From: Planctomyces sp.
Lineage (GTDB): Bacteria; Planctomycetota; Planctomycetia; Planctomycetales; Planctomycetaceae
Reading direction: 5' to 3'
Assembly: GCA_027483145.1 (NCBI GenBank)
Contig: JAIXVG010000343.1
Location: forward strand, 1 to 53,680
DNA length: 53,680 nt
A program made the position numbers and the translations under genes. Below, piece after piece: positions 3,049-17,326 of this stretch. Every line of letters begins with the position of its first letter. Position 1 is the stretch's first letter. The notes beneath the pieces are model-generated. The model was not told where the DNA came from, did not search any database, and worked only from the letters and a program-made list of their open reading frames with translations.

Positions 3049-5712
3049 TCAACGGTTTCGAAAACTATCCGACGTCGCACAAAACTCGATCAACGAAATC
3101 AAGGTATAGTCGTTCGCCTTCATGTGCTTGACTGCCGCTTGTACGGTTGGAGTGTCGCCCACTGTCAACTCCCTCCCAAGCGAGTACGTTAGCAGCTTCT
3201 CTGCCAGACACTTCAGAAACAAGTCTTCCTTAGTCAGCAGAGCCTGCCGTAAACCGGTTACCCCGGTAATGGGGGTCCCATCTGGCAGCTTCGAGCTGGC
3301 ATCGATGGCCGGGTCCCCAGGTTCAACGCGGCCCCGATAACCAAACCCCTCATGCGTGCGGTACTCACCAGCCGCATTGAAGTTCTCAAGTGCAAAGCCA
3401 AGGGGATCAATCTTGTTGTGGCAGCGGGCGCATTGGGCTAGAGTCCGATGAATTTCCAGTCGCTGCCGGACGGTCGCTTTATCGAGCCCGGGGACTTTGG
3501 GAGCGATATCACCCGCGTTCGCAACAGGCAGTCCCGGGTCTTGTCCTAGAAGATTCTTCATGACCCACGTCCCTCGCTTGACGGGAGAGGTTCGTGTTCC
3601 GTTGGAAGTGATTGATAGAATACTGGCCTGGGTCACAATTCCTCCCCGCTCGACCCCTTCCGGAACCTTGACCTTTCGAAACGCGTCCCCGTGCACATCG
3701 GGAATGCCATAATGGCGAGCCATTCGCTCGTTGATGACGACAAAGTCGCTACTTACAAAGTTCATCACGTTCAAGTTGTCGTTCAGAATCGTTCGAAAAA
3801 ACTCGCGAGATTCAGCCACAATCGATAGCTCCAAATGTCGATCGTAACGAGCATACAAATCCTTTGCGGGAGGATTCGACCCCACTTCGCGCAGTCCCAA
3901 CCATTGGTCGACAAAGCCCTTGACGAAGCGGTCAGCCTTAGGGCTGGCCAGCATTCGCTTGATCTGCTGTTTCACCACCTTGTCGTCAGCCAGTCGATTC
4001 TCTTTGGCCAATTCCAGCATCTCGTCATCTGGCAGCGACGACCACAAAAAGTAGGACAACCTGCTGGCATATTCATACGGCGACAACCGACCTTCAATTG
4101 AGCCTTTAGCCGCCGCTGCTCCATCAGGTGATTGTTCTGCCATATACAAGAAGTGAGGTGACGCCAGCACCGCCACCAGCGAAAGCTTCATCGCGTCGAC
4201 AAAATCGCTTCCCTGGTCGCGAGCCGTTTCGTAAAGCTTCAACTTTGTCGCCACTTCGTCCTTTGTCACCGGACGGCGATAGGCCTTCGGCATAAATCGC
4301 TCAAGTGTCTTCTGAGCATAGCCACGCTCGGCCTTAACCAACTGAGTGGTCGACTTCGCCTTGGGAAACGGCTCAGGGAAAATCGCCAAATGGCTCAGGG
4401 GTGGCCAGGCAGCCTGTGCAGCCAGCTTAGAAGCTTTTGGTTTCTTGGTGTTACCAGTCGTAGCCGCAGCCGCGGCGTTTGCTGTTTCAAAAACTGGTCC
4501 TTCCAGCTCAATCCAGTCAACATAGACTTCTGGGCGCGCGAACGCGTCGTGACCAATCATCCAGAAGTTCTCCACCACCGACGGAACATCATAAGCATAC
4601 TCCAGAAAGACCCCGGCCGACTCGGCCGTGAAGTAGGTCTGAAATTCGAAGACCTCCGGCGAGGATTCCTTCGCAGAGACATCAAACTCAGCGATGGTCG
4701 CTGGTTGAGGGCCCAGTTGCACAACCAGCTTTAGTCGCGGGGGACCATAGCCATAGTTCGGGTCAACTTCGAAATGTTTCAGGTCGTTGTCGAATGCTTC
4801 TCGGTGCCAGCGCTCGCCGTTCGGGTTCTCTTTGTTTTGCTGGTCAAACCGGGCCTGCAGTATGGCTTTGGCACTGGTGACCACTTCCGTGCGGCCAGGA
4901 GTTCTTCCATAAGTACGCAGACGAACGATGTAGTTTCCAGCTTCGGGAACCCTGAAATCGCGGACACCAATTCCCTTATCCCATGACGGGTGATGGATCT
5001 TCTTGAATCCGTTCACCAGCGGGTTATTTCCTGCGTTCACGATCGGGTTGTTCTTGTCATCAATGCGTATCCGGGTCGAGTCGTCAGCAGCACCGTTATC
5101 AACTTCGAACCGCCACTTAATGGCGTCAGGCCGGGGTGCTGTCACAATCGCCCGGTCGAGAATCTGCTGGGCTGCTGCCACGTGCAGTTCCATTTGCAGC
5201 GGGCTGAACGACAGGGTCTTTCCATTGTTATCAAACCCGCCAGCCGCGGGATCGAGCGGGAACATCGACACATCGAAGTCGACGTTCAGTAAGTCCTTGA
5301 TCGTATACTTGTATTCGTTGCGATTCAGTCGCCGCATGACAATCGTTTGGCTCTGGCCTGCTTGTTCGGCAGCAACCAATTGAGCAGTAATCCAATCGAT
5401 AATGGCGGCTGCTTCATCTGGTGTCGGTTGCGGCTCCCCTTCAGGAGGCATTTCGTGGCCACCCAGCACATTCAGCACTTCGCCCCACTTTTCACGGACG
5501 GCTCGGTCTGCAAAATCGTTCGGAAGCTTTTCCCCCAGTTTGAAACTCGACTCCTTCGAATCGGGCCCGTGGCACTTCAGGCAATACTGGTCAAAGAATG
5601 GTTTGGTCCGTGCGAATCCCCGTTCATCTGGGGTAAACGCCGACTCACCAGCCATCGCCGACACAATGGAAAGCGAACCAACGCAAACGGCAAGTAAGCT
5701 TCGCAGAAACAT
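3049..5712 (-). CDS. DUF1592-type planctomycete cytochrome c protein
   Basis: The product has 887 residues, with a signal peptide (residues 1-22, ending SAMAG) and a c-type heme motif C44-LK-C47-H48 in the N-terminal planctomycete cytochrome c domain. The DUF1587 region follows (RRLNRNEYKYTIKDLL), then a carbohydrate-binding-like insert, DUF1595, DUF1592 (YEYASRLSYFLWSSLPDDEM), DUF1588 with a second heme motif C761-AR-C764-H765 (HNKIDPLGFALENF) and a C-terminal DUF1585. These large exported proteins are highly expanded in planctomycetes, usually next to a DUF1552 gene; roles in extracytoplasmic redox or polymer use are proposed, not proven. Here no DUF1552 partner is adjacent: the 3' neighbour is convergent and the 5' side carries a MITE-like element. 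The family call is firm; the function is unknown. Confidence 0.93.
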   Translation of the reverse strand: MFLRSLLAVCVGSLSIVSAMAGESAFTPDERGFARTKPFFDQYCLKCHGPDSKESSFKLGEKLPNDFADRAVREKWGEVLNVLGGHEMPPEGEPQPTPDEAAAIIDWITAQLVAAEQAGQSQTIVMRRLNRNEYKYTIKDLLNVDFDVSMFPLDPAAGGFDNNGKTLSFSPLQMELHVAAAQQILDRAIVTAPRPDAIKWRFEVDNGAADDSTRIRIDDKNNPIVNAGNNPLVNGFKKIHHPSWDKGIGVRDFRVPEAGNYIVRLRTYGRTPGRTEVVTSAKAILQARFDQQNKENPNGERWHREAFDNDLKHFEVDPNYGYGPPRLKLVVQLGPQPATIAEFDVSAKESSPEVFEFQTYFTAESAGVFLEYAYDVPSVVENFWMIGHDAFARPEVYVDWIELEGPVFETANAAAAATTGNTKKPKASKLAAQAAWPPLSHLAIFPEPFPKAKSTTQLVKAERGYAQKTLERFMPKAYRRPVTKDEVATKLKLYETARDQGSDFVDAMKLSLVAVLASPHFLYMAEQSPDGAAAAKGSIEGRLSPYEYASRLSYFLWSSLPDDEMLELAKENRLADDKVVKQQIKRMLASPKADRFVKGFVDQWLGLREVGSNPPAKDLYARYDRHLELSIVAESREFFRTILNDNLNVMNFVSSDFVVINERMARHYGIPDVHGDAFRKVKVPEGVERGGIVTQASILSITSNGTRTSPVKRGTWVMKNLLGQDPGLPVANAGDIAPKVPGLDKATVRQRLEIHRTLAQCARCHNKIDPLGFALENFNAAGEYRTHEGFGYRGRVEPGDPAIDASSKLPDGTPITGVTGLRQALLTKEDLFLKCLAEKLLTYSLGRELTVGDTPTVQAAVKHMKANDYTLISLIEFCATSDSFRNR

Positions 5713-5784
5713 GATGTTGTCCGATGACGAGTGTTTGTCGAATGAATCAGATGAGTCGAAAGAGATTTCGATGTTAGATTGAGC

Positions 5785-5878
5785 TTAGAGCCTATCCGAA
5801 AACCGGTTGTGCTTGTTCGAAAACTCCATTGTTTCAGGGGTACGATCCATGCGTCAGAGGTTTTCGGATAAGTTCTTA
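5785..5878. mobile_element. 88-bp MITE-like element with TTA target duplication
   Basis: Inverted ends GAGCCTATCCGAAAACC (5788-5804) and the complement of GAACTTATCCGAAAACC (5859-5875) match at 15 of 17 positions, the inner 12 perfectly. The element is directly flanked by TTA on both sides (5785-5787 and 5876-5878), a 3-base duplication of TNA type. That is the target pattern of some IS5-family groups. It has no coding capacity. It lies between the starts/ends of the DUF1592 gene and pth. The IS5 link is inference from end sequence and target size. Confidence 0.6.
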
Positions 5879-5920
5879 TGGTCAGATGTTCGATTTCGTG
5901 GCAGGCAGCAATCGGCAAGT

Positions 5921-6583
5921 CTAACCCTCACTGTTGACTCGGTTCATGGCCAATTGGGTCCCCAACTGCAACCAGTCTTCCACCCCTTGCACCGCTCGCA
6001 GAATCGCATTCGTCACTGGTTCGTATTCCGATTTCGCAAAGCGGCCCAGCACATAGTTCGTTGCAACCACCCCTTCCGGCGGTCGCCCCACACCGAACCG
6101 CAGTCGCGGTACGTCAGGCGTGGCCAGACAGGCAATGATATTCGCTAGCCCCTTCTGCCCGCCAGCACTTCCGCTGCCACGCAACCGCAACTGACCTAGC
6201 GGCAAGTTCATGTCATCGCAAATCACCAAAAGGTCGGAGGGTGGAATCTGATAGAACTTGGCAGCCGCCTGAACGCTTCGGCCACTCAGGTTCATGTATG
6301 TTTCAGGGCAAAGCAGCAGCACCCGTTGTCCCTGCACGTTCACCTCTGCCAGTTGCCCTTCAAACTTCTTTTTCGATTGGCCAGCAAAGTGTCGCGTGGC
6401 AAAGGCCGAGACCACATCAAACCCAATGTTGTGACGCGTCCCATCATATTCCGGCCCTGGGTTCCCTAAGCCTACAACCAACTTCCACGCACTCGCTCCT
6501 TGCTCCCCCAATCGATATTCCTCTTTCGTAAGTTGGGTTCCAGGCGGCCGATTTTCGATGAGGGCCGCAACGTTTGCCGACAC
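5921..6583 (-). CDS. pth: Peptidyl-tRNA hydrolase
   Basis: The product has 220 residues from a GTG start and releases tRNA from peptidyl-tRNAs that drop off the ribosome. Family marks are VVGLGNPG (N41), TRHNIGF (catalytic H51), YMNLSG (N98) and ICDDMNLPLG (catalytic-support Asp 123/124). At the position of the E. coli His-Asn pair in the GGHNGL loop this protein has GGQKGL (Q143, K144), an unusual variant. The first 32 residues are an extension beyond the normal start of the fold; no better ATG exists in frame, so GTG at 6583 is tentative and lacks a clear ribosome site. It lies downstream of rplY, the usual pair, but a strong terminator separates them, so pth probably has its own promoter in 6584-6780. 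Confidence 0.93.
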   Translation of the reverse strand: MSANVAALIENRPPGTQLTKEEYRLGEQGASAWKLVVGLGNPGPEYDGTRHNIGFDVVSAFATRHFAGQSKKKFEGQLAEVNVQGQRVLLLCPETYMNLSGRSVQAAAKFYQIPPSDLLVICDDMNLPLGQLRLRGSGSAGGQKGLANIIACLATPDVPRLRFGVGRPPEGVVATNYVLGRFAKSEYEPVTNAILRAVQGVEDWLQLGTQLAMNRVNSEG

Positions 6584-6779
6584 GGAACTTCAGGGCTGCG
6601 TGAACTCGCTACTCCCTTCCCCGCGAAGCCCCTCTTTTGAGACCTCTCAACAGTATCTTGGGGCGCGGGTCACGTCAGGCGTCTCGCGATCTCTTACCCC
6701 AGATTGCACTCCAACTGTTCGTTGCAAATCAAGGCATAGGCCGTCGTTCATCTTCACGGAAGCATCTTCTACTCTCAAC

Positions 6780-6808
6780 AAAAAAGCCCATGGTTTCCCA
6801 TGGGCTTT
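6780..6808 (-). terminator. Strong Rho-independent terminator after rplY
   Basis: Arms AAAGCCCATGG (6783-6793) and CCATGGGCTTT (6798-6808) pair perfectly over 11 bases around a TTTC loop. On the minus strand the stem ends in a T run (6785-6780). It lies 55 bases after the rplY stop and about 200 bases before the pth start. Confidence 0.9.
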
Positions 6809-6862
6809 CTCAATTTCAAGTTTGCGATTCCCCTCGACTCAAGCGAAGGGACGCCAGCCTGA

Positions 6863-7516
6863 TTACTTCTTCTTAGCGTCCTTGGCAGGTTCAGCCGCAG
6901 CCGCTTCACCCGGCTTCTTGCCAACAACTTCAGGCTCTGCAGGGGCCGCCACCGCATCGAGAGCGCGAGTGTTGACCTGAACGACGTGCACGATGATAGC
7001 GTCGGCTGGAGTATGAACGTGGGCACTCTTTGGGAGTGGCAGGTCACGCACATAGATCGCCTGACCGAGACCTAATGCACCAATCTTGACGGTGATCACG
7101 CTCGGGATTTCGTACGCCAATACGTCGATCTGCACATGGTGAATCGGCTGCTCAAGCACACCGCCACTCAGGACGCCAGGAGCAGTCCCCTTGAGTTCGA
7201 TGGGGACATCGACGTTGACCCGCTCGTTTGGATCAACACGGAAGAGATCAACGTGAATGATCTCGGAACCCATTGCATCCCACTGGATGTCTTTGATGAC
7301 TGCCTTGTCGTGCTTGCCATCCACATCCAAATCGACGACACGCACACCACCGCGAATCAATGAGTTCAGCTCGGTTTCACCGACCGTCACGGACTGAACT
7401 GGTTGCTTGTGGCCATAAACATTCGCAGGAATTCGCCCCGCCCATCGCAACCGACGGCTTTCGGCAGAACCCAACTTGCTTCGATTTGTCGCAGTCAATA
7501 ACGCGTCGGCGCTCAT
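6863..7516 (-). CDS. rplY: 50S ribosomal protein L25, CTC form
   Basis: The product has 217 residues. It is the long L25/CTC type: an N-terminal 5S rRNA-binding L25 domain (residues about 5-95; RIPANVYGHKQPVQSV, VIKDIQWDAMGSEIIHVDLFRV) followed by the TL5/CTC beta domain (about 100-185) and a Lys/Ala/Pro-rich tail ending KDAKKK. It binds 5S rRNA in the large ribosomal subunit; the CTC form is also linked to stress in other bacteria. The ATG at 7514-7516 is used. It heads a minus-strand unit with pth downstream, but a terminator intervenes. The divergent gene at 7954 shares the upstream region. Confidence 0.95.
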   Translation of the reverse strand: MSADALLTATNRSKLGSAESRRLRWAGRIPANVYGHKQPVQSVTVGETELNSLIRGGVRVVDLDVDGKHDKAVIKDIQWDAMGSEIIHVDLFRVDPNERVNVDVPIELKGTAPGVLSGGVLEQPIHHVQIDVLAYEIPSVITVKIGALGLGQAIYVRDLPLPKSAHVHTPADAIIVHVVQVNTRALDAVAAPAEPEVVGKKPGEAAAAEPAKDAKKK

Positions 7517-7953
7517 GATACAGGCTAGCTCGCTTCAAACAGGCATTCTTCAGGTTAATCGGCAATGCAAATCGCACCTCAGGCGGGCAAATCTCCCCCC
7601 TAAAACGCGAGTCCCGCAGTGTATCCGGGCCGATCCCCCCCTGCAACTGGCCGCCAGAACTTGCTGCGTGACCCCCTCAGCCGCCCGATCGCCCGCCGTT
7701 GTGTGGACGAAAGCGTGTTCGCCGGTATAGTCTGCGAAACCCTTCTTTTCGAAGTTACTTCACGCCAGTCGGTCGTGTTGCACTCGATTTCGCGACACCT
7801 TCGTTGCCCCCTTAAGTCCCTGTTTTGCCGTTGTCAGCCGGTTGAACTTGGTTAAACTTGCAGGTTGAGCAGTCTGCGTAAGTCTTGCGATTTTAATGGC
7901 TTGGGTAAACCAGCGATCCCGCCGGTCCGTCTTTTCACCATGTCAGGCCGAAT
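7517..7953. other. Divergent promoter region of rplY and the GWGW protein gene
   Basis: 437 bases without a convincing gene, between two divergent genes. No clear hairpin or repeat was seen; both promoters should lie here. Confidence 0.5.
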
Positions 7954-10500
7954 ATGGCTTACCGCGAACTTGGGCCTTCACCTTATCAATCCCGTTCGTT
8001 CCAGGCTCGTCTGTTGGGCTGGCTGGCCCTTGCCTGTATTGCGGTCGTCGCGTTCAATTTCGTGTCGACTAAAGCACAGAAACCAGCCGACGAGATTGCT
8101 CCCCTCGGCAAAATCAACTACCGCGTTGTCGACCAGAACAGTTCGGACCTGGAAGCAGACGAGTTCCGGCTGGCACCCGAAAACAACACGCTTGATGGCC
8201 CACCAGCCACCCCGCTGACCAAATCGCCCAATCGCCCTGGCCCGAAAGTCATCGATCTGGATGCGAGCGATTCGCTCGAAGGGAGCCTGACCAACCCCGC
8301 CCGTGCAGGGGCCGCCCAGCTCACGCGAGAAATCCTCGAAGAAGTCCAAATTGACCGCCGTATCCTGGCCGATGTCCGCGACAACACGCTTGGCGTTCGC
8401 AGCGAAGAAGCCGATCCCTTTTTTCGTCTGCTCGCGCACACGCTGCAAATTCCTGCCAGCTCGCTCGCGATGGCAGCTCGCAAAGATGTCCTCTATCTCA
8501 ACTTAATGACCGAGTCCGACACCTTTCGGGGCGAGCTGGTTTCCATTAGCGGCGACCTGCGACGGCTCAATCGATTTCCCGCCAGCGAAAATCCCTATGG
8601 AGTCGTCGATCTCTACGAAGGTTGGGTCTTCACTGCCGACTCGGGGACCAATCCCTACCGAGTCGTCTGCACCGCCATTCCCAAGGACATGCCCACCGGC
8701 GAAACGATTAACCTCCCCGTCAGAGTGAGTGGCTACTTCTTCAAACGCGAAGGCTACGAAACTCCGGGTGGCTTGCATGTGGCACCACTGCTCTTGGCCA
8801 AAACAATCGCCTGGAATCTTCCTCCCAGCCTGCCACCAACTGACCCCGGGATTGCCCCCTATTTGATTGGTGGCCTCATCTTTGTATGTGCATCGCTGGG
8901 TGGAGTGCTCTTCTTCATCGCAGTAGCCGACACTCGCAGTCAGCGGCGGCGTGTCGCCTCGAAACCAGCCATGTCAGACGAACTGCTTGACGACCTGCAG
9001 CGGCGGGACATCAAAACGGTTTATGACACGCTCGATCAACTAATGCTGGCCGAGCAGGCTGCTAAACTGCCACAAGTCGAAGAGATCATCGACGGAGCCG
9101 AGCGCGACCTTTCTGCTGAAGAAATCTTCGAGCGACAATCGAAAACGCCCGGTTGGCTTCGCAACGAAGAAGAGCCAGCCGAGCCCCGCCGCCAATGGAA
9201 TTCAACAGCCAATCCAATTGAAGGTGATCAACAGCGGATCGATGTCACCCGCATTGCGATCACCGATCCCTTGGGAAATACCAATCTCGAATGGCAGTCC
9301 TCCAGCAACAAATCTGCTACCACGGTCGCCTCGTTTAAGTCTGACATGGCGATGTCGGCCGAAGAACTCGAACGCGAGCGGCTCGCATTAGAAGACGCCA
9401 AAGCCAAGTATCGCCAGCGTGAAAGCACCAGCTTCTCGCAACTTCCTCCCCAGCTAAATTCCACATCGGTCGGCAGCTATCGCCAGCCCGAACGAATCCC
9501 CGATCAAGCAACCTTTGTCCCACCCCGCGTTGACGTTCGGCCTCCTCTCACTTCAACAAGTGATGAACGCAACGACGGCCGCAGCATCGCCCGCGATCGA
9601 ACCCCAACCGACGGGTTCGTAGATGACGCCGACGGCCGCACTGCAGTCAACTGGACTCCCGCCATCGCCCAGCCTGCATTGCCCGCACCTTCCATGGCAA
9701 ACGGAACGACCAGGCTTGCCACCTCAAACACTAGCAACAACTACACTGCGAATACCATTTATTCGGAACCACTGCCCGATCGGCAGTTGGCTGCCCAAAA
9801 CCATTTCACCGACTATCAGCGTTCGTCCGATCAATCCGTCACCAACCGCACCAGTACCAGCAGCGACTCGTCGACCATCCAGACCAATCGAACCATTACG
9901 ACCAACGAACAAGACCGCACTCGTATCGATACGAGAACCAGCGGAGAGAGTCAGCCAGCCAAACCGGTCACCGGCCGCAACGGCTGGGGTTGGGGCAAAG
10001 CCGCCCGATCGGGGAAAGGGACCAACGAGGCCAGTTCCGATCGCAGAGCTACGACCGATTCCTCATCAACCTCAGGCAGCAGCACTCAGCAGTCAACGCA
10101 TGAAGCTTACGCATCAACCAGTTCGACAACCGAGTACCACACTAGCATCGACCAGCGAACTCAGTCCGAACTGACTAGCAACGCAACAGAAGCCAACTCT
10201 GGAACGACCAAACGTCGAGGGGGCTGGGGCTGGCCCCGACGCAATCAAACCGAGCGAACCGCCGACGACCAGCGCCAGGCCAATCAGGAAGCCGAGCGGC
10301 AACGAAACAACGAACAACGCTCTCCAGTCAACGAATCTTACGGCGAAGCTGAGGACGACACCGAAGTCGATGAAGAAGGGGATGAAGATTCTGGCGATCA
10401 AGCATCGGCTGACGATGACGCCAATCAGTCTTCATCGGGTGGCAAGCGCGGCGGCTGGGGCTGGGCAAATGGTCGCCGTAAACGTAAGCGCCGCAAGTAA
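7954..10500 (+). CDS. Large two-helix membrane protein with C-terminal GWGW repeats, function unknown
   Basis: The product has 848 residues. One membrane segment lies near residues 20-38 (LLGWLALACIAVVAF) and a second near 300-322 (YLIGGLIFVCASLGGVLFFI), with a folded region of about 250 residues between them. After the second helix the chain is long, polar and Ser/Thr/Asn/Gln-rich, likely disordered. Three GWGW motifs with basic residues nearby sit near residues 675, 755 and 832, and the protein ends in a very basic tail (RRKRKRRK). The pattern suggests a membrane-anchored protein with nucleic-acid or anionic-polymer binding repeats, which is inference. No named domain is recognised. The ATG at 7954 has no strong ribosome site. 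It is a plus-strand gene in a minus-strand neighbourhood, yet its third positions favour C like the rest of the left half. Confidence 0.8.
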   Translation: MAYRELGPSPYQSRSFQARLLGWLALACIAVVAFNFVSTKAQKPADEIAPLGKINYRVVDQNSSDLEADEFRLAPENNTLDGPPATPLTKSPNRPGPKVIDLDASDSLEGSLTNPARAGAAQLTREILEEVQIDRRILADVRDNTLGVRSEEADPFFRLLAHTLQIPASSLAMAARKDVLYLNLMTESDTFRGELVSISGDLRRLNRFPASENPYGVVDLYEGWVFTADSGTNPYRVVCTAIPKDMPTGETINLPVRVSGYFFKREGYETPGGLHVAPLLLAKTIAWNLPPSLPPTDPGIAPYLIGGLIFVCASLGGVLFFIAVADTRSQRRRVASKPAMSDELLDDLQRRDIKTVYDTLDQLMLAEQAAKLPQVEEIIDGAERDLSAEEIFERQSKTPGWLRNEEEPAEPRRQWNSTANPIEGDQQRIDVTRIAITDPLGNTNLEWQSSSNKSATTVASFKSDMAMSAEELERERLALEDAKAKYRQRESTSFSQLPPQLNSTSVGSYRQPERIPDQATFVPPRVDVRPPLTSTSDERNDGRSIARDRTPTDGFVDDADGRTAVNWTPAIAQPALPAPSMANGTTRLATSNTSNNYTANTIYSEPLPDRQLAAQNHFTDYQRSSDQSVTNRTSTSSDSSTIQTNRTITTNEQDRTRIDTRTSGESQPAKPVTGRNGWGWGKAARSGKGTNEASSDRRATTDSSSTSGSSTQQSTHEAYASTSSTTEYHTSIDQRTQSELTSNATEANSGTTKRRGGWGWPRRNQTERTADDQRQANQEAERQRNNEQRSPVNESYGEAEDDTEVDEEGDEDSGDQASADDDANQSSSGGKRGGWGWANGRRKRKRRK

Positions 10501-10550
10501 CCTCGGCCCCTGCCCAGTATCGTCAAAACCCCGCCGATCACCCAACCAAG

Positions 10551-10814
10551 TCACGGCGGATCATACCCCCCTGGATGCCAGGGATGGCAGCGACCAATAC
10601 GCCCCAGCCCCTTCCACACCCCGCGAACCGGGCCATACTTCAAGATCGCGTCAATCATATATTGGCTGCAGCCCGGATAAAACCGGCATCGCGGCCCAAT
10701 CAGCGGCCGAATGGTCCACTGATAGACCTTCACCAACCCAATCAACGGCCACCCCAGCGACACCGTGAAAAGCCTTCCCAGTCCTGATGGCTTCCCCTCG
10801 CCCGATGACTTCAC
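10551..10814 (-). CDS. yidD: Membrane protein insertion efficiency factor YidD
   Basis: The product has 87 residues. The family signature is clear: [21 protein letters not shown], then [11 protein letters not shown] and [16 protein letters not shown]. Conserved cysteines sit in [12 protein letters not shown] and GRCHPW. YidD is a small peripheral inner-membrane protein that helps YidC insert membrane proteins. Its ATG overlaps the rnpA stop by four bases (10811-10814), so the two genes are translationally coupled, as in most bacteria. No yidC follows here; the next gene is convergent, with only 50 bases between stops. Confidence 0.96.
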
Positions 10815-11197
10815 AGCGTCAATTCCTGGGAAGGGTCATTCGTTTTTGCCGGCAGCCGCTTCGCCAGTCGCTTTGCCAGGGCAATCAGCCTCCCGTGGCA
10901 TTCTGCTACCGAAAGCTCCGCCCCAATGGGTATTACCACCAGGTCAAGCCCCGCTGGTAACTCGTCTTGGCAATGACGGAACGCCTCTCTAATCAGCCGC
11001 TTCTCGTGGTGCCGCACCACCGAGTTTCCCCGCTTCTTCGAAACACTTGTCCCCAAGCGGCAATGCCCCAGCTCATTCCGATCAGCGAATACCAGCAGCA
11101 GCCCATCACTGGCTTTGCACTTCTTGTCGTAAACCGCCTTGTAGTCGGCTGCAGAATGCAGCCTGACCTGCGGCGGAAACGAAAATCGATTGCTCAT
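10811..11197 (-). CDS. rnpA: Ribonuclease P protein component
   Basis: The product has 128 residues. It is the protein subunit of RNase P, which with the RNA subunit removes 5' leaders from pre-tRNAs. The start is placed at the ATG 11195-11197 ([22 protein letters not shown]), because the family begins this way; a longer frame to 11344 exists but its first 49 residues look unrelated. Motifs seen: the [13 protein letters not shown] substrate-binding entry, [29 protein letters not shown] (read in two parts), which is the basic RNR-like helix, and LDLVVIP. It overlaps yidD by four bases. rpmH, usually just upstream, is not visible in the 250 bases before it. Confidence 0.95.
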
Positions 11198-11447
11198 AAT
11201 TGTTCTGCCGCTTGAAAACTGAACACGCTGAGAGCTTATCCAAGAACCTTCGGATGCAGCAATACTCCGTTTTTGATCCCCCCCGACCTTAGTCACGGGC
11301 CTCGCACCATACGTAAAGTACTCGAATCTTGCTCTCAACGGCACGCCAGCAATTCAATCTTCTCAGCGAAGCCTGCAAATGCTCACCGGTGTCGCCTAGG
11401 CACTGGGCACTGCTGTTTACCGTCATTCCGCTGTATTCGAGCCCGCT

Positions 11448-14400
11448 TTACTGCCCAGCCTGCTTGGCAAATTGCTCCAACTCCTGCTTCGCCCGATGCC
11501 TCAGCGGGTCCCCCAGCTGATCATAAACGGAATGACGCAATTCCAGAAATGGCCCGTGCCACGGGGCATGTGGTTCGTACACTCGCAGTGCTTCGGCCAA
11601 GCGTCCCATATTCGTCTTTTGAGACACAATCACGCGCTGCTCGGTTCGACTGGCGTTTAACAGGCCCGCAGCAAATGGCTGCCTCAAAATGGCTTCAAAG
11701 TCCCCCGCCAGACTCGGCTCGCGGCTACTCACCTGGTCGGGGATCTGCATCAGCACTTCCAAAATCGGCGATAGCATCCACGGGTTCGTCTGCAGCGTTT
11801 TGGCAGCGGTGCGAAACGAAAGAAACGCCCGTTGAGATTCTCCCAGTCGATTGGCCACTATCGCATCGAGCGCAGCCACTTCGCCAGGATGAACCGTCAG
11901 CCACTCGGCAAAACGGCCTCCATCATCAACCCCTTCAACAGCATACCCCAGCGCCATCAGCGCCGCTTCAGTGGGCGACAAGGGCCCACTACCCAACGTC
12001 TGAAATCGCTTGATTTGCACGTCAGATCTCCCCTGACGGTACGCCTCCCAAACCTGCAAATAGGCCGCAAAACGTTCGCGAATATCAACCGGCCATTCGA
12101 CCGCTTGCGAGTAAATCACATCCAGCACCAGCATTTCCCGAATCACTCGATCAACGTCTGCACTAGCCAGCTTTAATCGCTCGTTTAAGCGACCTGCCTG
12201 CCACTCCAGCCCTCTCAGCTTTGGTACAACCTCTACCCGCTTCCGAGACAAACTTCGGGCAAAGCCATAAGCCAATACGTTTCGATCGTCTGTATTCAAT
12301 GCCCCTTGCTCGCGATAAGCCTGCAGTGTCTCGCCAGTTGCAACCTGATGCGCAAAAAACTGCTCGGCCGTATTAACTCGCCACGCAGCAGCCACCCCCG
12401 ATCGAAACGGCTCGCTGGCTAAACGCTCCCGAATTCGAGGCAAATCAAGCGATTCTGGCAGGCTTTCCGGTCGGCACAACAACAGCATGTCCCCCGATTG
12501 GCTTTGCCACATCTCCACCTTAGGGAAAACGGTCGAAAGGGTCCGCAATACAATCTTGACCGTCTCTTCGTCAACTTCGTATCCCTGCAGCCATTGCACA
12601 AACAGTCCGCCACTCGCCAGCTTGCTCGATGCTGCTGCGTAAAACTCTCTCGTAAACAGGTTTGCCACTCCCACCCGATAAGGGTTCGATGGCTCTGAAA
12701 CGATCAGGTCGTATTGCTTGCGCGAGGTCAGCAAAAACTCCCGGGCATCGTTGAGGTAGACCTTCACCTTCGGATTGGCCAGCGCATTGCGGTTCACCAC
12801 CGAACATAGCTTGGCAACCTCCAGCATCGCTGGCTCAAGCTCGATCACGTCCACCTGCTGCACGCTATCCGCCTCGGCCAGCCAGCCTGCAGTCTCCCCC
12901 GACCCTAACCCCACCACCACCACCTCTCTGGGGTCGGGATGCAGCACCCCGCCCAATAGGCCCAGCATAATCTGGGTCCCAGCATCATGAACGGCGTTCC
13001 CGTCACTCTTGCCGTTCAGCAAGAACGAAAATCCGTTCTGAGCCATCAGGCCAATACAACCTTCAACCCCTTCAAATTCCTTGATAATCATGCGCTGCGT
13101 GCTGCGCCGCCAATTCATGATCGAATTCGGCGAGCGGTCTGCTGGTAACGAAGCTCGCAAAACGCCAATCGATCCATGCCGCCAAACAGCAGTCGGCCCA
13201 GTCGCCAGTAAAGCGGCAACGACCAATGCGGAAGGAAGCACTGGCACCAGACCTCGCAGCCACAAAGATCGCGTCCAGGCTTCAATCACCGAGTTTCGCC
13301 CAATCCACCAACCCATCACCAACATGATGATGGCTGCTCCCTTCCATACACCTGGCGCTGTCAGCAGCGGTAGCAGACCAAACCCACCAATCAAAGCGCC
13401 GGCAATACTCCCGACGGTGTTGGCGGCGAACGCCACCCCAGCCTGAAACCCGAGCTGCTCATCTCCCTCGCCAATCAATCCCATAAGCAGCGGAAACTGA
13501 AAACCGCTAACGAGCGCTGCGGGAAGAACCACGAAGCCCGCCGCCTGGAACCATATCAATAATAGAAGCCGAAACTTGTCGTCTTGATCCGACAACTGGG
13601 CCTGCGTCTGCGCCACCCAAATGGCCAAGCCATCTCCCCACCAGTACGGGGCGATAACTGCCAGCGATACGAGCGAGCACGTCAGCGAAAAGTGCCACGA
13701 TTCCGGCCTGCGGGTGCGATAGACAACCGTATAACAAAAGCTTCCAAGGCCAATCCCCAGCAGCACCACAATCAGTATCACGCCGAATGTATAGGTGTTA
13801 CCCCCCAGGATTGGGGCCAGCATGCGGAACCACACAATCTCCATCAGGAAAAAGCAGAATCCAGAGACACCCGCCGCAACGCAAATCGCCGACAAACTTA
13901 ATCGAGAACGTGAACGTGCTGCCAAACGAAGTTGGGAGTCAACAGATGAGTTCAAGGACCGGTCAGTGGAACTCATCGCTCCAGGAAGCGAACTCAAGTA
14001 AAACGCAACTATCGCCAGGACAAAGTTCAGGGCCGCTGCAGCCAAAAGTGTTGATCGAAGCCCCCAGGCTTCAATCAACACGAGGGAAACCACCCCCGTA
14101 CCAACTACGGCCCCTAACGTGTTACAAGCGTAGACCAGCGCCAAACTTGTTCGAGAAACATCATTCGAAGATGTCGCCGCCTTAGCCGCTGCCGGCAGCG
14201 TTCCTCCCATCAGAAACGTTGGTACCGCCAGAACGAGTGTTGCTAGTAACAGGCGATAAACGGTGGCCAGCGCCACGCCTAGGGTGGTCTGCCCTCCAGA
14301 AACCAGATAGGCTTCGCGGGCTAGTTCAATTACCCAGGGAGAAATAGCTGCCGAGATCGCAACTCCCAATTCCAGGTAAGCGTAAAGTCGCAACGGATTG

Positions 14401-16169: not shown

Positions 16170-17326
16170 ACAAGAATCCCATTCTCAACTGCTACCGACC
16201 TGCCTCAGAAGTAATCCCGAGTGAGGTGTTGTCTCATTTAAAGGGCGTCATCTCTTTGTGTGCCACTTGCTCGGCCCGTGTCTCCATCTGATTCGACAGA
16301 TCCTACTGGCACGGCCATCAGCCGAGTTCACTCGTTCCAGAATGAGATCCCTCATTTGCGAGTCACCACACGATTGAGCAACACGGCACCAGCCGTCGCT
16401 TCTCTTTGTCTTTTCAACCATTCACCGAGATTTCTCTCATCGCCGCACGGTACAACGACTCACTCAGCCAACGATGCGAATGGTCGGGTTCTTCAACATC
16501 ACCTCGGCAGAAACGTATGCGAGAATCAGGTCGGGCCGATTCGCAAACCCTGTCTTAGTCTCGCAGCATCACCAACCACCCACCACGAAACACACCGCCT
16601 CAATCATCACCTATCACATGACCTCGCGACTCATTTGGTAACGTGGCACGTTGTTACTTCTTCAATCGCTGCCACAACTTGCTGAACTCCCACAACACGC
16701 CAGCATACCCAATCTCGTCCCTCCCTTCGCAAATCAACTACCTTTGTCTTGCCCCGGCTAGTCGAAGCTTCTTTGCGATTTTCCCCCTCCTTCAGCCCCC
16801 TCGCTTCTGGCAAAGCCAACCTCCCAACCTGATGATGACCGCAGGCCGAACCTGGCGACAACTAGCCATGGCTTGAGCCAACTCCGAAAAATCTTCGGCC
16901 ATCCGAATCTGGTCCTATTTTTCCGAAACCAAACAAGCAGTATCGCAAAAAGCGATTAAAATAGTCTGTTGATATCAGAGAAGGCGAACGAGTCGATTAA
17001 AAAACCCCTATTTTCATTGCAAAACTTGACGGTCGCCTTGTCGCAGCACTATTCTTCTTAAAAATCGGGGTCTGCGATTAATTACCGCGAACTCGATCAC
17101 GTTCCGCGATATCTCTTGATCTGGCGGTACTCCAAACATCCGGCAAAACCCGTTTTTCGCGCAACTACTCCAGTTAGGGTAGAGGGCGTTGCAAGCGGAC
17201 CAAGCCATAAAGCAAACAGCCTCAACAGGCCGGTCCTCGTCATCTGACAACTCACCTGTTGCCAAATAAGGCAGACCAAAGCAAGTAGTCCGAATCCGAT
17301 TTGCGAATCTGATTGGAGTCGAATCA
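16170..17326. other. 1.16-kb gene-free stretch; candidate replication origin region
   Basis: No gene with family features is seen between the divergent lipoprotein and LysR genes. From 16,200 to 16,870 the plus strand is very C- and A-rich (for example 16561-16620, where C outnumbers G several fold). From about 16,910 to 17,090 it is AT-rich and holds a small palindrome ATCGC-AAAAA-GCGAT (16942-16956) and three copies of CGATTAA (16953, 16994, 17075). The strand bias in G and C changes sign over this stretch and the next 2-3 kb. No cluster of classic DnaA boxes was found by eye. The origin idea is inference. Confidence 0.4.

Follow-up and report, generated by a model that had tools for sequence, protein, structure and literature searches.

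Miniature inverted-repeat elements (MITEs) that cannot move by themselves are established in bacteria, ERIC being one example. RUP and NEMIS are likewise named as bacterial MITEs in PMC3733652, which also reports GTAG/CGTC REP repeats of 20-40 bp in Planctomycetes. Among autonomous elements, PMC3196728 lists one of 893 bp that has two frames and is placed in the IS1031 group of the IS5 family. Eukaryotic PIF/Harbinger (Tourist-type) elements produce a 3-bp TWA duplication and have transposases related to those of bacterial IS5, according to PMC4482050, in which the duplication of IS5 is given as ANT, not TWA.

The window analysed here, a stretch of 53,680 nucleotides, contains at positions 5788-5875 an 88-bp element without coding capacity, preceded by TTA at 5785-5787 and followed by a second TTA at 5876-5878. 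The arrangement of TTA, 88 bp and TTA described for 5785-5878 in an earlier sequence-only reading was thus found as claimed. The inverted ends of 17 bases, which the same reading had called well matched, are GAGCCTATCCGAAAACC on the left (5788-5804, plus strand) and GAACTTATCCGAAAACC on the right (5859-5875, minus strand; reverse complement of the right end), identical at 15 of 17 positions. An inverted-repeat search returned 18-nt arms with 89% complementarity, the sole inverted repeat of at least 14 nt in 5700-5950. In the alignment of copies the left end is followed by a conserved subterminal stretch, GGTTGTGCTTGTTCGAAAACT (5805-5825, plus strand), and then by a variable middle, element positions 39-63 (5826-5850, plus strand). 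The left subterminal sequence of the 88-bp family is GGTTGTGCTTGTTCGAA. Consensus positions 22-38 form a direct repeat of the left terminal inverted repeat, with 13/17 matches at an offset of 21 bp (shuffle fraction 0.002); since this offset equals two helical turns, the repeat could be a putative second transposase site, present on one side only. Two minus-strand genes enclose the element, which lies within the 208 bp that separate them. One is a PSD/cytochrome gene of planctomycete type with PSD2-5 and PSCyt3 domains (start 5712), the other a peptidyl-tRNA hydrolase gene (5921-6583), the 3' end of which faces the element. The domains of the former and the named planctomycetes among the sources of related IS elements lead us to regard the host as a planctomycete.

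The window comes from a draft genome with a completeness of 89%, its 625 contigs amounting to 4.96 Mb. A 106-bp query matched 40 places in it (E<=0.001), the 17-bp end with up to two mismatches occurred 92 times compared with 4 times for the reversed control, and the end with TWA added, one mismatch being allowed, occurred 73 times compared with none for the control. Given the 40 matches and the excess of ends over the reversed control, the repeat is not due to chance. An iterated profile was run over stretches selected because a match, end or transposase hit lay in them (164,152 bases altogether, the window among them) and gave 64 non-overlapping matches. In this genome at least 55 copies are near full length and have both flanks; most measure 87-90 bp, with outliers of 67, 85 and 105 bp. 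Subtypes are distinguished by the inner end sequences GAAAACC, GAGAACC and GAATACC, and the inner sequence is often the same at both ends (18, 5 and 3 of the 55 copies, respectively). The family thus shows the features of a MITE, being short, noncoding, bounded by terminal inverted repeats, dispersed in many copies and associated with a target-site duplication.

An exact 3-bp duplication like that formed by the TTA at 5785-5787 flanks 20 of the 55 near-full copies, whereas random re-pairing of left and right flanks, repeated 10,000 times, gave a mean of 8.4 and a maximum of 18. The remaining 35 copies lack an exact duplication, as would be expected if many copies are old, and in 40/55 the flanks agree within one mismatch. 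TWA stands on both flanks of 21/55 copies, and 18 of those 21 carry the same W on both sides, although this would occur in about half of them if TWA were merely part of the ends (binomial p about 0.0007). Because W agrees in this way, TWA represents duplicated target sequence, and the ends do not extend into it. When the 18 TWA duplications are oriented as TTA, the preceding base is C in 15 and the following base is G in 10, so that the copies favour CTWAG as target. In four copies (L014, L015, L019 and L022) TAA on the left flank is accompanied by CAA on the right, a repeated one-base departure from duplication. For a presumed direct connection with the target consensus of plant PIF elements, the literature search yielded no paper.

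The element folds far better than its shuffles (-34.8 kcal/mol, z -4.93), and 49/55 copies are neither wholly inside an ORF of at least 150 aa nor overlap one by more than 20 bp. Both observations would suit an intergenic palindrome of REP or ERIC type whose hairpin, in RNA or DNA, is under selection for a role at mRNA ends, in stability or in attenuation. The pattern of changes in the terminal stem speaks against this explanation. Among the 42 pair positions that have changed across 19 copies of 88-bp type, 39 are altered on one side and 3 on both, just 1 of these 3 restoring a match, so that the stem does not appear to be kept by compensatory change. The strong fold is consequently better regarded as a by-product of the inverted ends than as a maintained RNA. 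Substitutions were also counted along 14 copies of 88-bp subtype, after exclusion of copies that had another length or showed over 20 differences to the consensus. The 44 private substitutions are evenly spread (15 in the 25-bp middle, p=0.41), also at odds with a selected hairpin, whereas the 16 shared substitutions are concentrated in the middle (12/16, p=0.00015). Private changes mostly arose after insertion and shared ones were carried by the source copies, indicating that source copies were constrained at their ends, as by a transposase, and that inserted copies drift freely. The TWA duplications on the copies, the lack of any Rfam family at gathering threshold in 5000-12000 and the lack of sigma-70 promoter- or terminator-like sites in 5600-6000 also count against a selected hairpin, which we consider a very improbable account of this family.

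The sequence-only reading had pointed in addition to a lone related end near rnpA, possibly a relic. The position given in its text, 11232-11248, was correct and the 11231 of its title was one off. The likeness extends past the end itself to 11268, the 37 bp at 11232-11268 (minus strand) matching model positions 54-90 of 90 at 14.1 bits, about 35 bp upstream of the likely start of rnpA (about 11197; rnpA assigned by Pfam). From this match we read 11232-11268 as the surviving right end of an old, decayed family copy. A second stretch, 16512-16558 (plus strand; model positions 2-48 of 90, 13.6 bits), is a probable relic of the left end of a decayed copy of the same family and had not been mentioned in the sequence-only reading. 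The best score in 40 dinucleotide-shuffled windows was 10.1 bits.

The sequence-only reading had proposed, as a check, a search for full-length IS elements that have these ends and TNA duplications. Such elements (905-919 bp, with TWA duplications) were found in relatives but not in the draft genome of the window itself, in which a search for a cognate full-length IS was negative at 89% completeness. Searches of this genome with PF13586 gave no match, and PF01609 gave one sub-cut-off fragment of 79 aa at the edge of contig C117. NF033580 and a transposase profile (A2) built from four pieces, with which distant transposases could be missed, matched the same ORF on contig C435 only (A2 41 bits), and the ends are not nearby. 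Of the domains of an IS5 transposase, this ORF (L094:1387-1905, 173 aa) contains DUF4096 alone and lacks the catalytic portion; it may be a remnant, or a DNA-binding protein that has been retained. The source transposase gene appears to have been lost from this draft genome, or left unbinned or unassembled.

A class-wide scan for the end plus TWA covered 397 genomes and gave matches in 41, several of them with 20-57 ends and no control hits. The first 20 stretches taken from it held five full-length elements, 905-919 bp long and flanked by exact TWA duplications (three in G195, one each in G428 and G418), one decayed 935-bp element without exact duplication, and nine short pairs of 44-132 bp, seven of them with an exact target-site duplication; five stretches had no pair. 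A further 20 stretches held 18 short pairs, eight with exact duplication, and a 909-bp element with duplication in G105; one had no pair. In one stretch (L172:455-498, from G270) two such ends lie back to back in a 44-bp near-perfect palindrome, with TTA on one side only. In G105, which belongs to the same family as the genome of the window, a TWA duplication flanks two of the three IS elements examined (L178 and L250, not L191). The IS elements with these ends encode IS5-family transposases, with the domains PF13340 and PF01609 and with NF033580 above its cut-off in L158 (210.5 bits), L157 (193.9 bits) and both frames of L154; several copies have two overlapping transposase frames. We take these elements to belong to the IS1031-like subgroup of the IS5 family, with TNA as the duplication presumably typical of the subgroup. 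Ends of this type, separated by 0.9-1.06 kb, occur at eight of 28 named loci that are related to the G105 transposase. Exact TTA duplications were seen in three of the eight (Desulfococcus, a Desulfuromonadales and an Anaerolineales MAG) and were missing from the four planctomycete loci (Aeoliella, Rhodopirellula, Gemmataceae and Planctomyces records) and from a second Anaerolineales locus. The parent-type IS elements share the outer 17-20 bp alone with the family of the window and not its subterminal sequence; hence none of them is its direct ancestor.

The number of copies, the statistics of the duplications, the common target site and the full-length IS elements of relatives together support the nonautonomous, MITE-like nature proposed in the sequence-only reading, for which an absence of further copies and of a parent IS, here and in relatives, had been named as the adverse outcome; both copies and relatives' IS elements were found. 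On these grounds the element is very probably a MITE that an IS5-family transposase of IS1031-like type mobilised in trans. In the mechanism that we propose, a transposase with DUF4096 and DDE_Tnp_1 domains would recognise the GARCYTATCCGAAAACC ends and insert the element at CTWAG, which would create the 3-bp TWA duplication. That an IS5-type enzyme moved these particular copies is our inference from the ends and duplications that they have in common with the IS elements of relatives.

Within the set of genomes searched, the family of the window occurs in its own genome only. It was not found in 29 relatives, among which there is no second genome of the genus, and exact matches to a left-end pattern of 28-29 bases were lacking in genome_contigs and viral_contigs, the absence of this pattern fitting a lineage-private family. 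A sister family of about 77 bp is present in a complete 6.36-Mb genome of the same taxonomic family (G004), with 314 + 306 ends compared with 9 control hits; the query that matched it gave no match in any other of 170 family genomes. In this genome (G004:C1, e.g. L089:1498-1581, 4585416-4585590) three ends of the same orientation are spaced 79 bp apart, which suggests a tandem array. The only IS5-like gene in G004 that matches the transposase profile (at 1486 kb) has no matching ends, and the weak hits L096 and L097 belong to another transposase without these ends; the profile is a poor match both here and in the genome of the window. Two further genomes, G312 with 57 ends and G336 with 31, gave no match to the transposase profile. 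When 17 copies of the sister family were aligned, their flanks often shared only TA, which could point to a mover other than an IS5 enzyme, for instance one of IS630/mariner type with its TA duplication, or a RAYT-type system. However, in the window's family 3 bp are duplicated, W being identical in 18 of the 21 copies that have TWA on either side, and the full-length elements bounded by these ends code for transposases of the IS5 family, so that a non-IS5 mover is highly unlikely.

Other genomes of the family and class contain short elements with unrelated interiors bounded by the same ends. Interiors of about 66-69, 77, 78, 88-90 and 132 bp lie between nearly the same ends, and in individual genomes such elements number in the tens or hundreds, in some cases with no matching transposase seen. 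Unrelated interiors and absent transposases might suggest that such elements arise de novo time and again and are cross-mobilised by IS5 elements that visit or have since been lost, and not that one resident IS has decayed. As a tentative proposal, on which we would not yet rely, one IS5-type end with its CTWAG target may serve as a common currency in planctomycetes, by which unrelated short interiors are repeatedly captured and amplified. The family itself is a new one of an already known kind, and no description of it was found in the literature consulted, including PMC12730594, PMC4482050, PMC3196728, PMC9208149 and PMC3733652. A repeat noticed in raw sequence has thus been settled as an IS5-type MITE, for which the ends, the target site and relatives are now given. 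Some planctomycete genomes are rich in short elements bounded in this way, one complete genome of 6.36 Mb having about 620 ends, and such elements could mislead the prediction of promoters, small RNAs and terminators. The scale reached in related genomes and the recurrence of unrelated interiors between the same ends give the case a little added interest.

Among the closest known systems is the IS5/IS1031-like group, to which the relatives' IS elements are likened by their 905-919 bp length, 17-bp ends starting with GAG or GAA, TWA duplication and NF033580 transposase. The element of the window differs in being 88 bp long and noncoding, with a subterminal sequence common to no IS found. PIF/Harbinger elements, which are eukaryotic and have two genes, resemble it only in the way they work. 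GTAG/CGTC REPs are similarly short, dispersed and palindromic and occur partly in planctomycetes, whereas the element of the window has 88 bp, target duplications and IS5-type ends. In general form it resembles the bacterial MITEs RUP, NEMIS and ERIC, which are likewise noncoding elements of 70-300 bp with inverted ends of 15-30 bp and many copies, but its family has ends, a target site and a parent family different from theirs.
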